From Lichenostomus cassidix (lineage: Eukaryota; Chordata; Aves; Passeriformes; Meliphagidae), in NCBI GenBank assembly GCA_008360975.2, contig CM039187.1, forward strand, positions 17,811,094 through 17,875,093: a stretch of 64,000 nucleotides of DNA, given 5' to 3'. Position numbers and translations under genes: made by a program. This document shows positions 1 through 49,000 of this stretch, piece after piece; within the stretch, counting starts at the first letter, position 1, and each line of letters begins with the position of its first letter. The notes under the pieces are model-generated. The model was not told the origin of the DNA, did not search any database, and was given only the letters and a program-made list of their open reading frames with translations.

Positions 1-26523
<26,523 letters not shown>

Positions 26524-40086: not shown

Positions 40087-43000
40087 GTAAGTAGAGATAT
40101 ATTGACACTTTGAGATTTTTTAGCACTAGAATAAGGTGACTTATATATAACATTAGGCACTGTGCAGGAATGGAAAATTTCCTTTAAAAATCAGCAAGAC
40201 CTATTTACTGTTTTTCTGGCTGCAAAATAGCATTCAGCACTTCAAAAACATTGATGAAGGCAGCTGTTGACATGATTGCTAGCAGTAAGAAGAGGAGCAG
40301 ACCCTCTTTGGATCCTCAGTTGAGAGTGGTGCGGGAGGTGCTTATATTTCTGTGCTCATGGGGAGATGGTAGCATGCAGCAGCAAAGTTACACAGCTGAA
40401 GTGTGAAGAAACTGTGGGCTCCTTTTCTGCTCCCTCGTGCTGTGGCAGTGAGTTCAGGGCTCTGGCCTGTCCCCATTGTGGTCCCCTGTTGTGCTGGCAG
40501 GCTGTGGTCACAGAGAAAGATACGGTCAAGCCACAATATCTGTCTTTGGTGGGTTTCTAATATTGCAACAATAATGAGTCTTGAACACCCTGTCTCTTTG
40601 CCAGGAGCCAGAAATGCTGTGTATGTTCTCTTGTAAACGCTTGTGGCTTTGACAGGAATGTGGCAGGATGGGGAGAAGCTCATGGGGTGTGCTGAGGCAG
40701 CACCTGGGGTCTGGCTCAGGCCAGGCAGCAGGTAGCTCTGGTGTTGGGCCAGCCATGGCAGCTCCCCTGTCAGCCTCTGTGGAAGGCCAGATTTATGTCC
40801 AGATCTCAAAAGATATTTTTTTTTCCCCTCAGAAAGACTGAAATTGTAATCTTCCTTTCTGAGTTCCCTATTTCCTTTGGAAGTTTGGTATAATAAAATA
40901 GATGTTTTTCTAAAGTTTGGAGTAGCTCTCACTTAAATCTTTCCCTCTTGGATGATCTATTCCCCACTACCCCCAAGCTGGAAATAATTTGTAAACTTAG
41001 AATGAGAAAAGAAGGAGAAAAGCCTTTAAAATCCAGTGATCTCTTATCAGTTGGTGTTTTAGGGGGTGGAGGCGTGAGAAGGAAATGAGAGGTCCAAAGA
41101 AGGATGGAGAAAAACTGTTTTGGTTTTCTAAACCCCTCACAAAAAATACAGTTCAAAGGCAAAGGGAATGAAAAAATGCAAAACTCTCTGAGAAAATTTC
41201 CACTGAAAAAAAAACCAAACAGTAATCCAACCTGTCCCCAGATTCCAGCTTTTCCAAAAAAACTATTGTTTAGTTTTGAAAATATTTTGGTAGTAAAACT
41301 TTTACTCTTTCTTCCGTTCATTTATAGGTAAAACTTTTCAGAGCATCAGCTGTAGGGTACACTGCTTCTGCTGCTTTCATGCCAATTACTCATATTTACA
41401 TGAGAGTCACACAAACACCTCGAGTAGTTTCAGTTAGGGAGTAGTAGGATCAATTCAGCTGGTAAACAAGACCAATGTGAACAGGGATTCTCTGAAAAAC
41501 TGGTGTGATTGTTCCTGTGCTGCAACAGTTATGTGCACAGAGAATGAGGTGCATGAGTGAGTCACAAGTTGCTGCTTGAGCCAGGAAGGGCCGTAACTGC
41601 TTACCGGAATTAGTACCAAAAATGATCGTTGTTTAATTTGTTTCCACTGCCTCCAAATGAAAGCTCAGCTTTGCACACCCTCTTTCACTGAGTCACCAGG
41701 CATGGGTCCTGAATGTCTGGGGGTTTCTTCACAGGGTCCTTGCATGCAGATGGAGAGGATTGACCATCTTTTCTTAGCAAACTCAGATGGATGAGTCTAA
41801 CCTGCCTGTCTTGGTTTGAAAACAAACTAGTGGGAGATCACAAGTCAAGATTGAAATTAAAAATAAGTGAAATAATACAAGGAAAAGCACTGACAAAGTC
41901 AGATATAACCTAACACCCTGTTAGGGTGGTAGTAGCAGTCCGACTGAAGTAGTTCAGTTGAAGCAGTGATCTTGTGAAGGTTTAGTCTCTAGCTGAAGAT
42001 CTAGTAGTAGCTCTGGTTTTCTGGGAACTCAGTAGACAGGGCTAGCTCAGGCAGTTTCAGGGCTAGGTTATATTTAGGTGGGAACACCTGGCTCTTCCCT
42101 TTTCGGCAGAGCATTTTACAATGGGATGAGATAAGTCTATGAGTCACACGGTGGGTCCTTGATGGCCTATTGCCTGTCATGCGGGGTGGGTCGTTAGCAA
42201 GTGATAATAGCTAACGGATGGCCCATTGCCTGTCATCCGGAGTGGGTGATAGCAGCTAATGGCCCACAGCTGGTGGTAATAGAATACTTAACTACATCAA
42301 TATTGCAACCTAGGACATTATCCACTCTTTATTTTATTACTATCTACACAGTTCTCACTTAAGATAAGGTTTCTTTGTGGGACACAACGGGTTTTTTCAT
42401 CTGCTTGCATCACTTACTAAGTATAACTAGGTTCTTGGGCAAAAACAACCCCACGGATGGGCTTGCTTTTGCCTGAGGTGGGACTAATCTAAACAGTCTT
42501 TCTTAAAAAACTTTTTACGTGTATTATAGGGACTTTATTTCTATCTACTGTGTGCAAAGGTTTGGACTCGGCAGGACTGGCTCGATTGATAGAACTCCTT
42601 GTGTTAATTATTTAGGTGGCTTTTGCTAAGTTTAGTTTTTAATTTTTGAAGGTTCCCCCGCCAAGTGCTTTCAAAGTTGTTTTAAGTAGTCTGTTGTACT
42701 GTTTAACTTTCTTGGCAGTTGGTGTATGATAGGGGATGTGGTATATTTATTTAATTTTGTGTTTTCTAGTTTAGGTGCTTATGAGGCTATTTTTGAAATG
42801 GGTTTCATTGTTAGACTCGATTTTCTTAGGGGTATTATGTCTCTACAGGACTTGCTTTTTTAGACTTAAGATGGTGTTTTGGGCAGTAGCATGAGGCACA
42901 GGGTAGGTCTCTAACCATCTCGTGGTTGTTTTTACTATGGTTAGCACGTAGCGCTTTTTTTGGCGGGTTTGGGGAAGTGTGATGTAGTCAACTTGCTATA

Positions 43001-46000
43001 CTTCCCCATACTTGTACTTTGACCATCGTCTACTGTACTACAGAGGCTTTACTCGCTTGGCTTGTTTGATTGCAGCGCAAGTCTCACAGCTGTGGATGAT
43101 TTGTGAGATGTTGTCTATGGTTAAGTCTATCTTTCGGTTACGAGCTTACTTGTATGTTGCATTTCTCTCTTGATGATTAGAGGCATCATGGGCTCAACGA
43201 GCTAGAAATAATTTTTTTTTGTGCTGTCAGTTTAGATTTACTTGTGACACTTTTACTTTGGCAGCTCGGTCTACTTGCTCGTTGTTACGATGCTCTTTAT
43301 TAGCTTGACTCTTAGGTATATGTGTATCTACGTGTCGAACTTTCACGGTTAGCTTTTTTGCTTGGGCGGTGATGTCTTGCTAAATCTCAGCGGCTCAGAT
43401 GGGTTTTCCTCTGCGCTGCCAGTTAGCCTTTCTTCAGCGATTTAATTATCTCTACAGTGCATTGGCTATCATTTAGGAGTCGGTGTAGAGATAGAGCTTT
43501 GGTTATTTCTCTCGTTCAGCAATATCTAAAGCCAGCTGGATGGCTTTAAGCTTTGCAACTTGACTCGATCCACCTTGTCCCTCGGTAGCTTGTACAGCTT
43601 GTCGTGTGGGGCTTTATACTGCAGCTTTCTATTTCCGATCTGCGCTTACAATTTGGCAGGACTCATCGGTGAAGAGGGCATAGCGTTTTTCACTCTTCGG
43701 CAGCTCGTTATACGGGGGTGTTTCTTCGGCACGTGTTACTTGCTCTTCTGCTTCTTCTGAAGATAATTTAAAAGTCTCACCTTCAGGCTAGTTTGTTATG
43801 ATTTTTAGAATTTCGGGGCGATTCGGGTTTTTAATACGGGCGCGCTGTGTGATGAGGGCAATTTATTTGCTCTACGTAGCATCAGTGGCATGGTGGGTAG
43901 AGGGAACTCTTTCTTTGAACATCTACTCTAGCACTGGCAGTCGGGGTGCAAGGAGAAGTTGTGTTTTTGTGCTGATTACTTTTGAGGCGGCTTGGACTCT
44001 TTTGTAAGCTGCTAAGATTTCTTTCTTGGTGGGAGTGTAGTTGACTTCAGACCTTTTGTAACTTCGACTTTAGAATCTTAGTGGTTGACCTCGGGTTTCA
44101 CCAGGCACTTTTTGCTAAAGGCTTCAGGATAGATCATGGCTCCCGGCTGCAGAGTAAAGCACATTCTTTACTTCTGGTCCTGTTTTGACTGGTCTAAGGG
44201 CTACCGCATGAGCAATTTTTTGTTTGATCTGGGTGAAGGCTTGCTGCTGTTCAGGGCCCCAGTGGAAATCGTTCTTCTTGCGGGTTATGAGGTAGAGAGG
44301 ACTCACGATCTGGCTATATTCAGGGACGTGCATTCTCTAAAAGCTTATGGCACTTAGGAAGGCTTGTGTTTTCTTTTTGTTGGTTGGTGGAGACATCGCG
44401 GTGATTTTATTGATGACTTCAGAAGGAATCTGACGCCGTTCATCTTGCCACTTTACTCTTAGGAACTGGATTTTTCGGGCAGGTTTCTTGACTTTACTCT
44501 TTTTGATGGCGAAACTAGCTTTCAGGAGAATTTTGATGATTTTCTCTCTTTTCTTAAATACTTTCATTGCTGTGTCCCCCCACACAATGATGTTATTAAT
44601 ATACTGCAAATGTTTTGGAGCTTCACCTTTTTTTAGAGCAGCTTGGATCAGTCCATGGCAGATGGTGGGACTGTGCTTTCACCTTTGGGGCAGTCGGTTT
44701 TACGTGTACTGCACACCTCTCCAGGTGAAAGCAAACTGAGGCTTGCACTTTGCTGTTAGAGGAATGGAGAAAAAGGCATTGGCAATATCAATGGTCGCAT
44801 ACCACTTTGCTGCTTTGGATTTTAGCTTATACTGAAGTTTTAACATGTTTGGTATAGCAGCACTCAGTGGTGGTGTGACTTCATTTAGGCTACGGTAATT
44901 TACTGTCAGTTTCCATTTTTCACTGGACTTACGCACCGGCTATATAGGGTTGTTAAAGGGTGAGTGAGCTTTGCTGACCACCCCTTGGCTCTTTAGTTTC
45001 CGAATCATCTTATGGATGGGGGCTACAGAGTCTCTGTTAGTGCGGTATTGCCGGCGATGCACTGTTGCTGTAGCAATTGGTATTCGCTGTTCTTTAATTC
45101 TCAGTAGTTCTACAGCAGACGGGTTATCTGAGAGACCAGGCAGGCTATTCAGTTGTCTTATGTTTTTTGTCTTTATGGCTGCTATCTCAAAAGCTCAGCG
45201 ATGTCTCTTCGGGTCTTTGAAATATCCACTCCTGAGATAATCTATGCTGAGGATGCATGGGGCGTCTGGACCAGTCACAATGGGGTGTTTCTGCCACTCA
45301 TTCTCAGTTAAACTTACTTCAGCTTCCAGTACAGTCAGCTGCTGGGATCCTCCTGTCACCCCAGAAATGGAAATGGATTTGGTCTCTACATATCTAGATG
45401 GCATCAGGGTGCACTGAGCGCTGGTGTTAACCAAAGCCGTGTATCTTTGTGGGTCAGACGTGCCAGGCTATCGGATCTACACAGTCCAATAGATCCGATT
45501 ATCCCTTTTCTCTACTTGGCTAGAGGCAGGGCTCCTCTAATCTTGTTTTTGGTGCACGATGTTCTTCTCTTGTAAATGTGTTCTTGAGGTCCTTTCAAGC
45601 GGATCAGTCATATTATCACTTCTATTCTGTTTGGAGTTCTGTCCACAAGAGACTGGGGCAGTGTTGTACCTAGATGAGCCTCCTGAAGTGGATGTTTCTT
45701 TTTTTAATTCACGTACCCGGGCTGCTAAGGTGGAGGTGGGTTTCTTATCCCACTTTTTCATGTTTTCTTCATGCTCTTGAAGGAAAAACTAGAGGTCACG
45801 TCGTGGAGTTTGTTTTCTTTCCCTGACTGGAGTACGTCTGCTCTTGATGGCAGAGACTCGGGTTGGTTTTGGTGTGGCATGGAAAAATCTTTCTGTGAGC
45901 TCTTTCCTTAGTTTCTGATGGCTCTCTTCAATTAATTTTCGGACTTGCTCGGCTAGGTTTGTTTCTACCGATGAGACCTGGGTGCGTAGTGGAGCGGTGA

Positions 46001-49000
46001 CAGTGTCCTCATAAATTCTTAGTTTGTTTGTTAACACGCTCACTTGGTCTTCGCCTTCCTTCCACTGCAGTGTTGCCAGGTAACGAGAGTATATTTCTGG
46101 TCTGAGCCGCGCGAATCTTAGCTACATTTGTGAAGTGTACTGGACATTATTTGGGCTCTTGGGGAATCTCTCGTTGTCTGAGAAAATGATCTCTAGCACA
46201 GCCAATTCCCTCAGGTATCGGATACTTTGTTTTATTGTGTTCCATTTCTTTTGGTGCATCTGGAGGTTTTTTTTGTACAGGTATCTGTCCCGTACACTCA
46301 GCAGCAATCGCCGCCAGAGGCTGAGAGTTTTCTGGGTTTTCTCAATCTCCTGGTCAATGACCACATCCTGAGACAGGGATCTCAGTTGTCTGGCCTCACT
46401 TCCGTCCAGAATAGTGTCATTAGCAGCGGCGTCTCAGATGCGGAGCAGCCAGGTCAAGATGGACTCATTCGCTTGCCGGGTGAATTCCTTCCGTAGGTCA
46501 CGCAGCTCCCCCAGGGATAGAGAGCGAGTGATGATCTTCGGCTCTGTCTCTTCTGCTTGGTGAGATGGTCCTGCCGCATCCTCATCAGTCGCTGTGCGGA
46601 CTGATTTGCTCTTGGATTTTTTTTTCTGGACGGGGGTAACTGCTACTGGCTTTGGCTGTTCTGATTTGGCAATGGTCTGTGTTGAGACATTGACTGCTCT
46701 TTTGGTTTTTTTTTTCTTGCCTGCTGACTTGTTTCTTTTCTCCTCCTCTTTGAGAAGATGCTGTATAACACCAGGTATTGTTCTGTTTCTCAGCATGAGG
46801 TACACTGTGCTGGTCGCAGAGAAGAAAGAAAACAGAACTAACAGGAAGATTATGCCATCCTTAGCATCCAGAGAGAACTCAATGTTGTCAAAGATGGCTG
46901 TGCCTGGCCTGAAATGCTGGAAGAAACCACTCTCTCCTCCTAGCCCCAGAGGGTGGGTGCGATTGCTGAGGAGGTCCCAGACGAAGCAGCTCAGGTTAGG
47001 CTAGGCAGACAAAGTCGAGTATATATTCCGAATGGTATTCATTGCCTCACAGGTTATCATGCAATAGGCATAATAAACCAATACAGCAATTCTTATGCCA
47101 TTTCCTGGTCGCAACAGGAGCAATGCAACGGGTAGATAGTTTCTCATTTGAGGGAAAATATAAAGGGTAAGATACATTACCCACATAGACAGGCTGATCA
47201 TTATGGTGATAGGATTTTCTGAGTTTCCCCAGGTCGAGCCCCACGTTGGGCGCCAAAATATGTCTTGGTTTGAAAACAAACCAGTGGGAGATCACAAGTC
47301 AAGATTGAAATTAAAAATAAGTGAAATAATACAAGGAAAAGCACTGACAAAGTCAGATACAACCTAACACCCTGTTAGGGTGGTAGTAGCAGTCCGACTG
47401 AAGTAGTTCAGTTGAAGCAGTGATCTTGTGAAGGTTTAGTCTCCAGCTGAAGATCTAGTAGTAGCTCTGGTTTTCTGGGAACCCAGTAGACAGGGCTAGC
47501 TCAGGCAGTTCCAGGGCCAGGTTATATCTAGGTGGGAACACCTGGCTCTTCCCTCCTCGGCAGAGCATCTCACAATGGGATGAGATAAGTCTATGAGTCA
47601 CACGGTGGGTCCCTGATGGCCCATTGCCTGTCATGCGGGGTGGGTCGTTAGCAAGTGATAATAGCTAACGGATGGCCCATTGCCTGTCATCCGGAGTGGG
47701 TGATAGCAGCTAATGGCCCACAGCTGGTGGTAATAGAATACTTAACTACATCAATATTGCAACCTAGGACACTGCTTTCCAGGAAGCTGTGGTGGTGCTG
47801 GCTGTCTTAAGAGAGAGCTAGAAAAGGAGCACTTGAAATGGTCCTGCCAGTTCAGTCAAATTCTTCTAGGCCAGTGACAAACTGTTAGAGGTGTCAATGC
47901 CACCTGCTCTGTCACTGCTTTTGCTGCAGTGGCAGCTTCTCCACAGACTTAAACTTGCTGCTCATGGACTATTTGGATTCAAAGCTGCATCTATTACAAA
48001 GTTTCCTGTTGACATCATTTTCTCCACAGCTGCTCCTTCTGCTGCAAGCAAGGTGTGGTAGTGCAGGAGTGTTTCTGTGCTGTCTGTAAAGCAAAATTCC
48101 AAGTCTTGCTGATTGCTGAGCATGCTGCCTCTCTCAATACTCCTCATTGCTGCGTGGCTGGCAAAGGGGTCAGCATGCAAAGGTGTGCCAGCGGTACCCA
48201 CAGGTTCTCTTTCACACCAGAAATAAGAGCAGAGGGGATTTGCATCATAGCAGGAGGCTGGTGGGTGGTACGTGGTGGTCCATGTTATGCAAGTCAGGTG
48301 GGACAACCCTAATGCTTCCTTCTGGTCAGTAATCTCTGATTTTATTTCGCTGTGAAGCCATCCCCATTAAAATATCCATCAGCTCATACTGATACCATTA
48401 GTTTAATATTAACCCTGCCTCTAAAGGTAAATTTATGAGAATATAGTAGTTTGCAACTTAACTATCCTTGCTTCTAGGAAGGAGAAAATTGTGTCTACTA
48501 TTGTAATAAAGTGGTGATGATTCTTCATGCCTAACCACCCACATACTTCCCCTACTGATAGTACCAGCTTGTGACAGATGTGACAATATATTCAAGCCAG
48601 TTCCTTGACTACCAGCTTTCTTAAATTGAAGCTCTTATACCTGGGCTGTGGTTGATGGCCGTACTACCCTGTGGTGACTAGAATAAATCTCCATGTGTCT
48701 TTCTGCCTTGGGACTCTGGCACTGTCGACACCTTAGGGCTCTGTCAGGAGGATTCTTGTGTAGTTGTACCTGATCCTTGGTACAGGGAAGAGCATCAAAT
48801 TTGCACTCCTACAGATGGATCTCTTCCTTCAAAGTAGTCCCTTGGCCCAAATCCTTCCAGTGGATGTGCTTCCTTCTTGAAACCAGCTATGCAGACATGC
48901 AGCAGCAGCTGCTGAAAACAATGGTGTGCAAGAACAAGACTATTTCAGGAATTCAAAAAACTATCTAAACACTACCCTGCACCAACCCACTGAGAAATGC

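Follow-up and report, generated by a model that had tools for sequence, protein, structure and literature searches.

A provirus-like endogenous retrovirus (ERV) copy in the genome of Lichenostomus cassidix was found to carry 13 one-way G-to-A differences between its long terminal repeats (LTRs), all of them on the side of the 3' LTR. Cytidine deamination during reverse transcription, in which a second exposure of the minus strand, once displaced, marked the 3' LTR alone, is considered a highly probable origin of this pattern. The analysis covered one stretch of 64,000 nucleotides of contig CM039187.1, referred to below as the window. The element lies on the minus strand of the window, and bases are given in the viral sense unless stated otherwise. 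Papers with PMC numbers are cited for the portions of their texts that were available. The features of the element are as follows (coordinates of the window, strand, description and basis):

41807..47771, minus strand (viral sense): whole element, provirus-like copy with two LTRs, 5,965 bp (LTR pair, primer binding site and ordered gag/pol pieces)
41807..42317, minus strand: 3' LTR (viral), bearing all 13 G-to-A differences (self-comparison of the window)
47261..47771, minus strand: 5' LTR (viral), with G at all 13 sites (self-comparison of the window)
47238..47255, minus strand: primer binding site (PBS), 18 nt, 5 nt downstream of the 5' LTR (sequence inspection)
42318..42335, minus strand: purine-rich stretch adjoining the 3' LTR, weak candidate for the polypurine tract (sequence inspection)
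41802..41806, no strand: target site duplication (TSD), left copy, 4/5 match (flank comparison)
47772..47776, no strand: TSD, right copy, 4/5 match (flank comparison)
46437..47000, minus strand: gag piece, 188 aa between stops (gag by position and by 66 relatives; no Pfam match itself)
45540..46433, minus strand: further gag-frame pieces in one shared frame with stops between them (covered in part by relatives)
45198..45467, minus strand: piece between gag and reverse transcriptase, assigned to protease solely from its position (Pfam gave no match)
44703..44939, minus strand: reverse transcriptase (RT) piece (PF00078, E 9.1e-08)
44337..44675, minus strand: RT piece, used as query of the protein search (120 relatives, best 79% identity)
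42846..42995, minus strand: integrase piece (PF00665, E 9.9e-05, 23 bits, below the curated cut-off of 32.6)

The orientation of the element was assigned from the order of its parts: the PBS sits just inside 47261 and is followed on the minus strand by gag, RT and integrase pieces, so that 41807-42317 is the 3' LTR. The PBS is taken by us to be of the tRNA-Lys1,2 type. A PBS-lys1,2 that ends in GGGG on its 3' side is described in the available part of PMC8775094. Among the 120 relatives of the RT piece at 44337..44675, which are named generically or as 'group K', 97 are listed with PF00078, and 4 of the 5 relatives of the integrase piece are listed with PF00665. Pfam returned no match for the RT piece used as query or for three pieces of the gag frame, nor for 6 open reading frames of the DNA flanking the element, and Rfam returned none for the whole window. 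Comparison of Pol with the PDB gave 5 weak matches only (E 0.0009 to 0.008), all presumably to foamy virus Pol. The integrase piece ends 528 nt short of the 3' LTR, a distance that appears too small for the remainder of pol together with env; judged from this layout, the element would be without an env gene, an ERV-L-like trait.

Self-comparison of the window gave a single direct repeat pair, 41807-42317 and 47261-47771, and one short inverted repeat as the only other repeat. At 1938-1988, a near-perfect, AT-rich and hairpin-like inverted repeat of about 50 bp is perhaps the remnant of a palindromic mobile element.

As stated in the original prediction, the two LTRs aligned over 511 bp with 0 gaps and 13 mismatches, and A was present in the 3' LTR and G in the 5' LTR at 13 of 13 sites. 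Other kinds of difference were found at 0 of the 511 positions. The base following the edited G was G in 7 cases, A in 5 and T in 1, a recount that reproduced the contexts first given for the edited strand. With the G positions of the 5' LTR as denominators, 12/55 were changed in GR context (GG/GA) versus 1/49 in GY context (GC/GT; one-sided Fisher p=0.0019). No differing site was a CpG (0/13), again in agreement with the earlier claim. Decay of methylated CpG was rejected on this count, 7 CpGs being present in each LTR. A crude neutral model with an assumed transition bias, of use for scale only, put the probability of 13 differences of one kind in one copy at <1e-12. Ordinary ageing, i.e., 13 neutral substitutions acquired after integration, would leave an LTR divergence (2.5%) that is normal for an ERV, but it has to accommodate 13/13 changes of one kind in one copy, 12/13 of them in GR context, none at CpG and none a transversion, as well as the same spectrum inside the element. 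Its probability is regarded as practically negligible.

The flanks of the element carry a 5-bp TSD, AGCAG before the element and GGCAG after it, with 4/5 bases identical. The mismatch (A before, G after) has a GG context and may have come from ordinary mutation or from deamination of a short single-stranded gap during integration. An imperfect TSD would also be expected if, once the element had integrated, ectopic recombination or gene conversion had swapped one LTR for that of another copy. LTRs from different copies should, however, show other substitutions, of which 0 were seen in 511 positions, and 4/5 flank bases still agree; a swap of this kind is therefore very unlikely.

The interior of the element was compared with 191 protein relatives, collected by RT, gag and integrase searches and aligned to the element by tblastn in the coding frame only. 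The relatives are protein fragments from other copies and other species, so that the comparison was made at the level of protein and not of DNA. Rows in other frames were left out (27 of 221), as they were when the analysis was rerun with the integrase relatives. In this way 935 codons were covered by any relative, and 668 had a majority residue among at least 3 relatives; the other 267, which lacked a majority or were covered by under 3 relatives, were excluded. The element differed from the majority at 142 of the 668 codons, and G-to-A alone explained 92 of these differences, A-to-G 13, T-to-C 4 and C-to-T 3. When 80% agreement among the relatives was demanded, 482 codons were retained and 74 differed (G-to-A 63, A-to-G 5, T-to-C 1, C-to-T 0). 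The gag, RT and integrase pieces all share the coding frame, which holds 42 stops versus 112 and 105 in the other two frames. Tryptophan was the majority residue at 10/10 testable in-frame stops, the other 32/42 stops falling outside this rule.

The internal context was counted over those G positions whose change alters the residue. Changes were recorded at 77/206 GR versus 19/144 GY positions (p=2.6e-7); by dinucleotide, 33/85 GG, 44/121 GA, 10/71 GT and 9/73 GC were changed. An internal excess of G-to-A in GG/GA context, named in the original prediction as support for editing, was thus found (92 versus 13 A-to-G), with protein relatives in place of DNA.

Taken singly, 189 of the 191 relatives gave more G-to-A than A-to-G, with 1 tie and 1 reverse; towards the six least diverged relatives, all of them gag fragments, it was weaker (G-to-A 3 to 10, A-to-G 1 to 4). 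The G-to-A load of the element, 13.8 per 100 testable codons, exceeded that of 186/186 relatives with at least 50 testable codons (median 2.7, highest 11.1; 5 of the 191 were excluded by this threshold). The ratio of G-to-A to A-to-G was 5.5 for the element and higher for two relatives (8.5 and 6.25), and comparisons among the relatives were likewise skewed to G-to-A (808 versus 530). Two fragments of Zosterops borbonicus from the gag search, P0162 and P0168, look edited (G-to-A 24 versus 3 A-to-G, and 16 versus 1), and the family has probably been edited in other birds too. The gag-piece and RT-piece relatives carrying organism names were from birds, many from Hirundo, Zosterops and Pitangus, with one exception: P0016, a bird ERV pol fragment on a 385-base contig, is labelled Klebsiella pneumoniae and is probably stray bird DNA contaminating the public record. 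These names by themselves point to a bird host and, less strongly, to a songbird. A search for sister DNA of the RT piece in viral contig and genome contig collections gave pattern matches, 0 of which were confirmed, and the LTR pattern had no match in the viral contig collection.

The LTR pair by itself has no polarity, and ADAR-like A-to-G editing of the 5' LTR would produce the same 13 differences as G-to-A in the 3' LTR. The polarity was assigned as G-to-A in the 3' LTR because the interior shows a G-to-A excess. Against A-to-G editing of the 5' LTR stand this internal excess (92 versus 13) and the 10/10 testable stops at majority tryptophan; moreover, in the accepted scheme of reverse transcription the LTRs share one RNA, and editing of RNA would normally not split them. 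This reading is extremely unlikely.

In reverse transcription, minus-strand DNA is synthesized earliest near the 3' end, which is also the last part to be covered. The proportion of stops among stops plus TGG in the coding frame rose from 5' to 3' (2/7, 5/8, 7/13, 17/19 and 7/8; permutation p=0.0013), under the assumption that the stops arose from tryptophan; 38/42 stops were used, and the 4 outside 261-4770 were excluded. The proportion of changed GR positions rose in the same direction (5/28, 21/63, 17/36, 24/59 and 10/20; p=0.0098), while GY showed no rise (5/20, 7/36, 5/35, 2/44 and 0/9), its changes being commonest in gag and fading 3'-ward. Three stricter sets gave p values of 0.020, 0.149 and 0.014 for the GR trend, the trend not being significant at 80% agreement with at least 3 relatives (p=0.149). 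Over 400-800, the first stretch of gag, changes were no commoner at GR (5/28) than at GY (5/20). Since GY changes are fairly frequent in gag (5/20 and 7/36), ordinary divergence is mixed in there, as in a fast-evolving gag. The GGGG of the PBS is intact; together with the rise of damage from 5' to 3', this agrees with the pattern expected from exposure in the course of reverse transcription.

The proposal of cytidine deamination during reverse transcription, put forward in the original prediction, is accordingly supported by the G-to-A excess, its strand specificity, the GG/GA context, the stops at tryptophan positions and the 5'-to-3' rise. Both LTRs of a provirus stem from one RNA template, and the G-to-A split between them therefore arose in or after the last round. 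A route to this split, which the original prediction left without explanation, can be sketched from the textbook scheme of reverse transcription and the available part of PMC12548423. One LTR would be present on the minus strand of the last round, and plus-strand strong-stop DNA would copy it before jumping to the primer site. Extension of the minus strand on the jumped strong-stop DNA would then produce the 5' LTR as duplex and displace the old LTR strand. The displaced LTR strand would stay single-stranded until the arrival of the plus strand, and this would constitute the second exposure. Edits made prior to the jump would appear in both LTRs and be invisible in the LTR comparison; edits made after it would appear in the 3' LTR alone. 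We infer the acting enzyme, this order of events and a single round.

The position of the edits within the 3' LTR fits displacement less well by our reading. A smooth gradient was looked for along the 3' LTR and none was found: edits at GR positions peaked in mid-LTR (0/13 at 1-149, 11/29 at 150-330 and 1/13 at 331-511), and displacement would expose the U5 end longest. Such a patchy spread is compatible with intermolecular strand transfer, in which the LTRs derive from two co-packaged genomes, one edited and one not; the editing would be real, and its restriction to one LTR would come from template switching. One-way G-to-A alone would also result, given genomes otherwise identical over the LTR. 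The two genomes would, however, need to agree at each of the remaining 498 LTR positions, and a simpler in-molecule route has already been proposed for the Mtv proviruses of mice (PMC12548423, available part). Template switching is thus unlikely, and the second exposure of the displaced strand is retained as the preferred reading.

On the edited strand, C and T served equally well as the base before the target C (YC). Within GR, GRA was changed at 41/77 positions versus 36/129 for the other GR positions in codons with relatives at 42811-46861 (TYC on the edited strand). No weight was given to this preference for A at +2, because only 3/12 GR edits of the LTR show it and the adjacent A could have arisen by editing as well. 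An AID-like enzyme had been suggested beside an APOBEC1-like one. The AID hot spot is WRC, which is mirrored on the plus strand as GYW; GYW was changed at 11/69 positions internally and at 1/29 in the LTR, versus 77/206 and 12/55 for GR, so that the hot-spot preference was not borne out and editing at AID hot spots was rejected. By subtraction, the remaining GY positions were changed at 8/75 inside the element and 0/20 in the LTR, GYW lying little above them. An APOBEC1-type enzyme would be the best candidate editor, on the strength of the APOBEC1 literature in its available portions (PMC3880073, PMC5399452). There, the lizard and the zebra finch are given as the only non-mammals with a known APOBEC1 homologue in 2013, the lizard enzyme has DNA mutator activity, and the lizard genome showed editing of L1 but none of LTR elements (PMC3880073); the original function of APOBEC1 was probably DNA editing (PMC5399452).

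The LTR divergence of this copy is 13/511 (2.5%). After removal of the edits, 0 differences are left, with a 95% upper limit of about 0.3% per site. At the usual bird rates, 2.5% corresponds to several million years. The LTRs do not give a reliable date for this copy, which the edits would make look older, just as the original prediction had warned. An LTR pair can acquire its divergence ahead of integration, and bird ERV chronologies built on LTR pairs need prior screening for 3'-LTR editing. The signature is now seen in a bird element and birds, to our knowledge, lack APOBEC3, so that late-stage editing is probably restricted neither to APOBEC3 nor to long LTRs. It is tentatively suggested, as a possibility somewhat short of the expected outcome, that birds have in place of APOBEC3 another deaminase, with an APOBEC1-type enzyme of songbirds as the best candidate, which acts on reverse transcripts up to and including the final step, favours YC (CC and TC alike) and arose independently of mammalian APOBEC3. 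If this is true, 3'-LTR-confined edits are a clock-free timestamp of that step.

Among known systems, the element resembles HIV-1 proviruses hypermutated by APOBEC3G or APOBEC3F in its minus-strand C-to-U changes, its tryptophan-to-stop changes and the dependence of damage on exposure time. APOBEC3G favours GG and APOBEC3F favours GA; unlike the products of either enzyme on HIV-1, GG and GA are changed alike here. The HIV-1 gradient is mentioned in the available part of PMC12548423.

Strong editing of songbird LTR elements is reported, with citation of Knisbacher and Levanon 2016, in the available parts of PMC6523648 and PMC6497032. Since the effect is much smaller in the medium ground finch (PMC6523648, available part), editing varies among songbirds. 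In the zebra finch, TguERVL1_I-int has 392 G-to-A among 475 mismatches according to a table in PMC12548423, and the present element is likewise a songbird LTR element with heavy G-to-A editing. As strong editing of songbird ERVs has been published, a bird editor is not itself new. The accounts of ultra-edited songbird ERVs in the available portions of PMC6523648, PMC6497032 and PMC12548423 do not mention a restriction of edits to the 3' LTR such as that found here, and this signature in a bird element looks to be the new part. Among the open-licence PMC papers listed by literature searches, no bird case of 3'-LTR-confined editing was named in titles or abstract openings, and the element may be the first bird case to unite the hypermutation of songbird ERVs with late editing specific to the 3' LTR.

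The closest counterparts are the mouse proviruses Mtv17, Mtv21, Mtv61 and Mtv62, for which 3'-LTR-specific G-to-A changes by mouse APOBEC3 were described in 2025 (PMC12548423, available part, as also for the following statements). They have 13, 16, 2 and 9 LTR differences, respectively, all but one being G-to-A in the 3' LTR (13/13 in Mtv17); a second exposure of the displaced strand was proposed for them, and the signature is called unreported outside the mouse retroviruses of that study. The element shares with the Mtvs the one-way G-to-A in the 3' LTR alone, the hypermutation along the whole genome and the distorted LTR dating. The Mtv context T(T/C)C on the edited strand, one of two in the mouse, resembles the internal GRA preference found here (41/77 versus 36/129), whereas the Mtv-like A at +2 is rare among the GR edits of the present LTR (3/12). 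The Mtvs also have edits common to both LTRs, and they belong to a mouse virus whose LTRs exceed 1,300 bp and whose editor is known (mA3); the signature is seen here in a bird element with an LTR of 511 bp.
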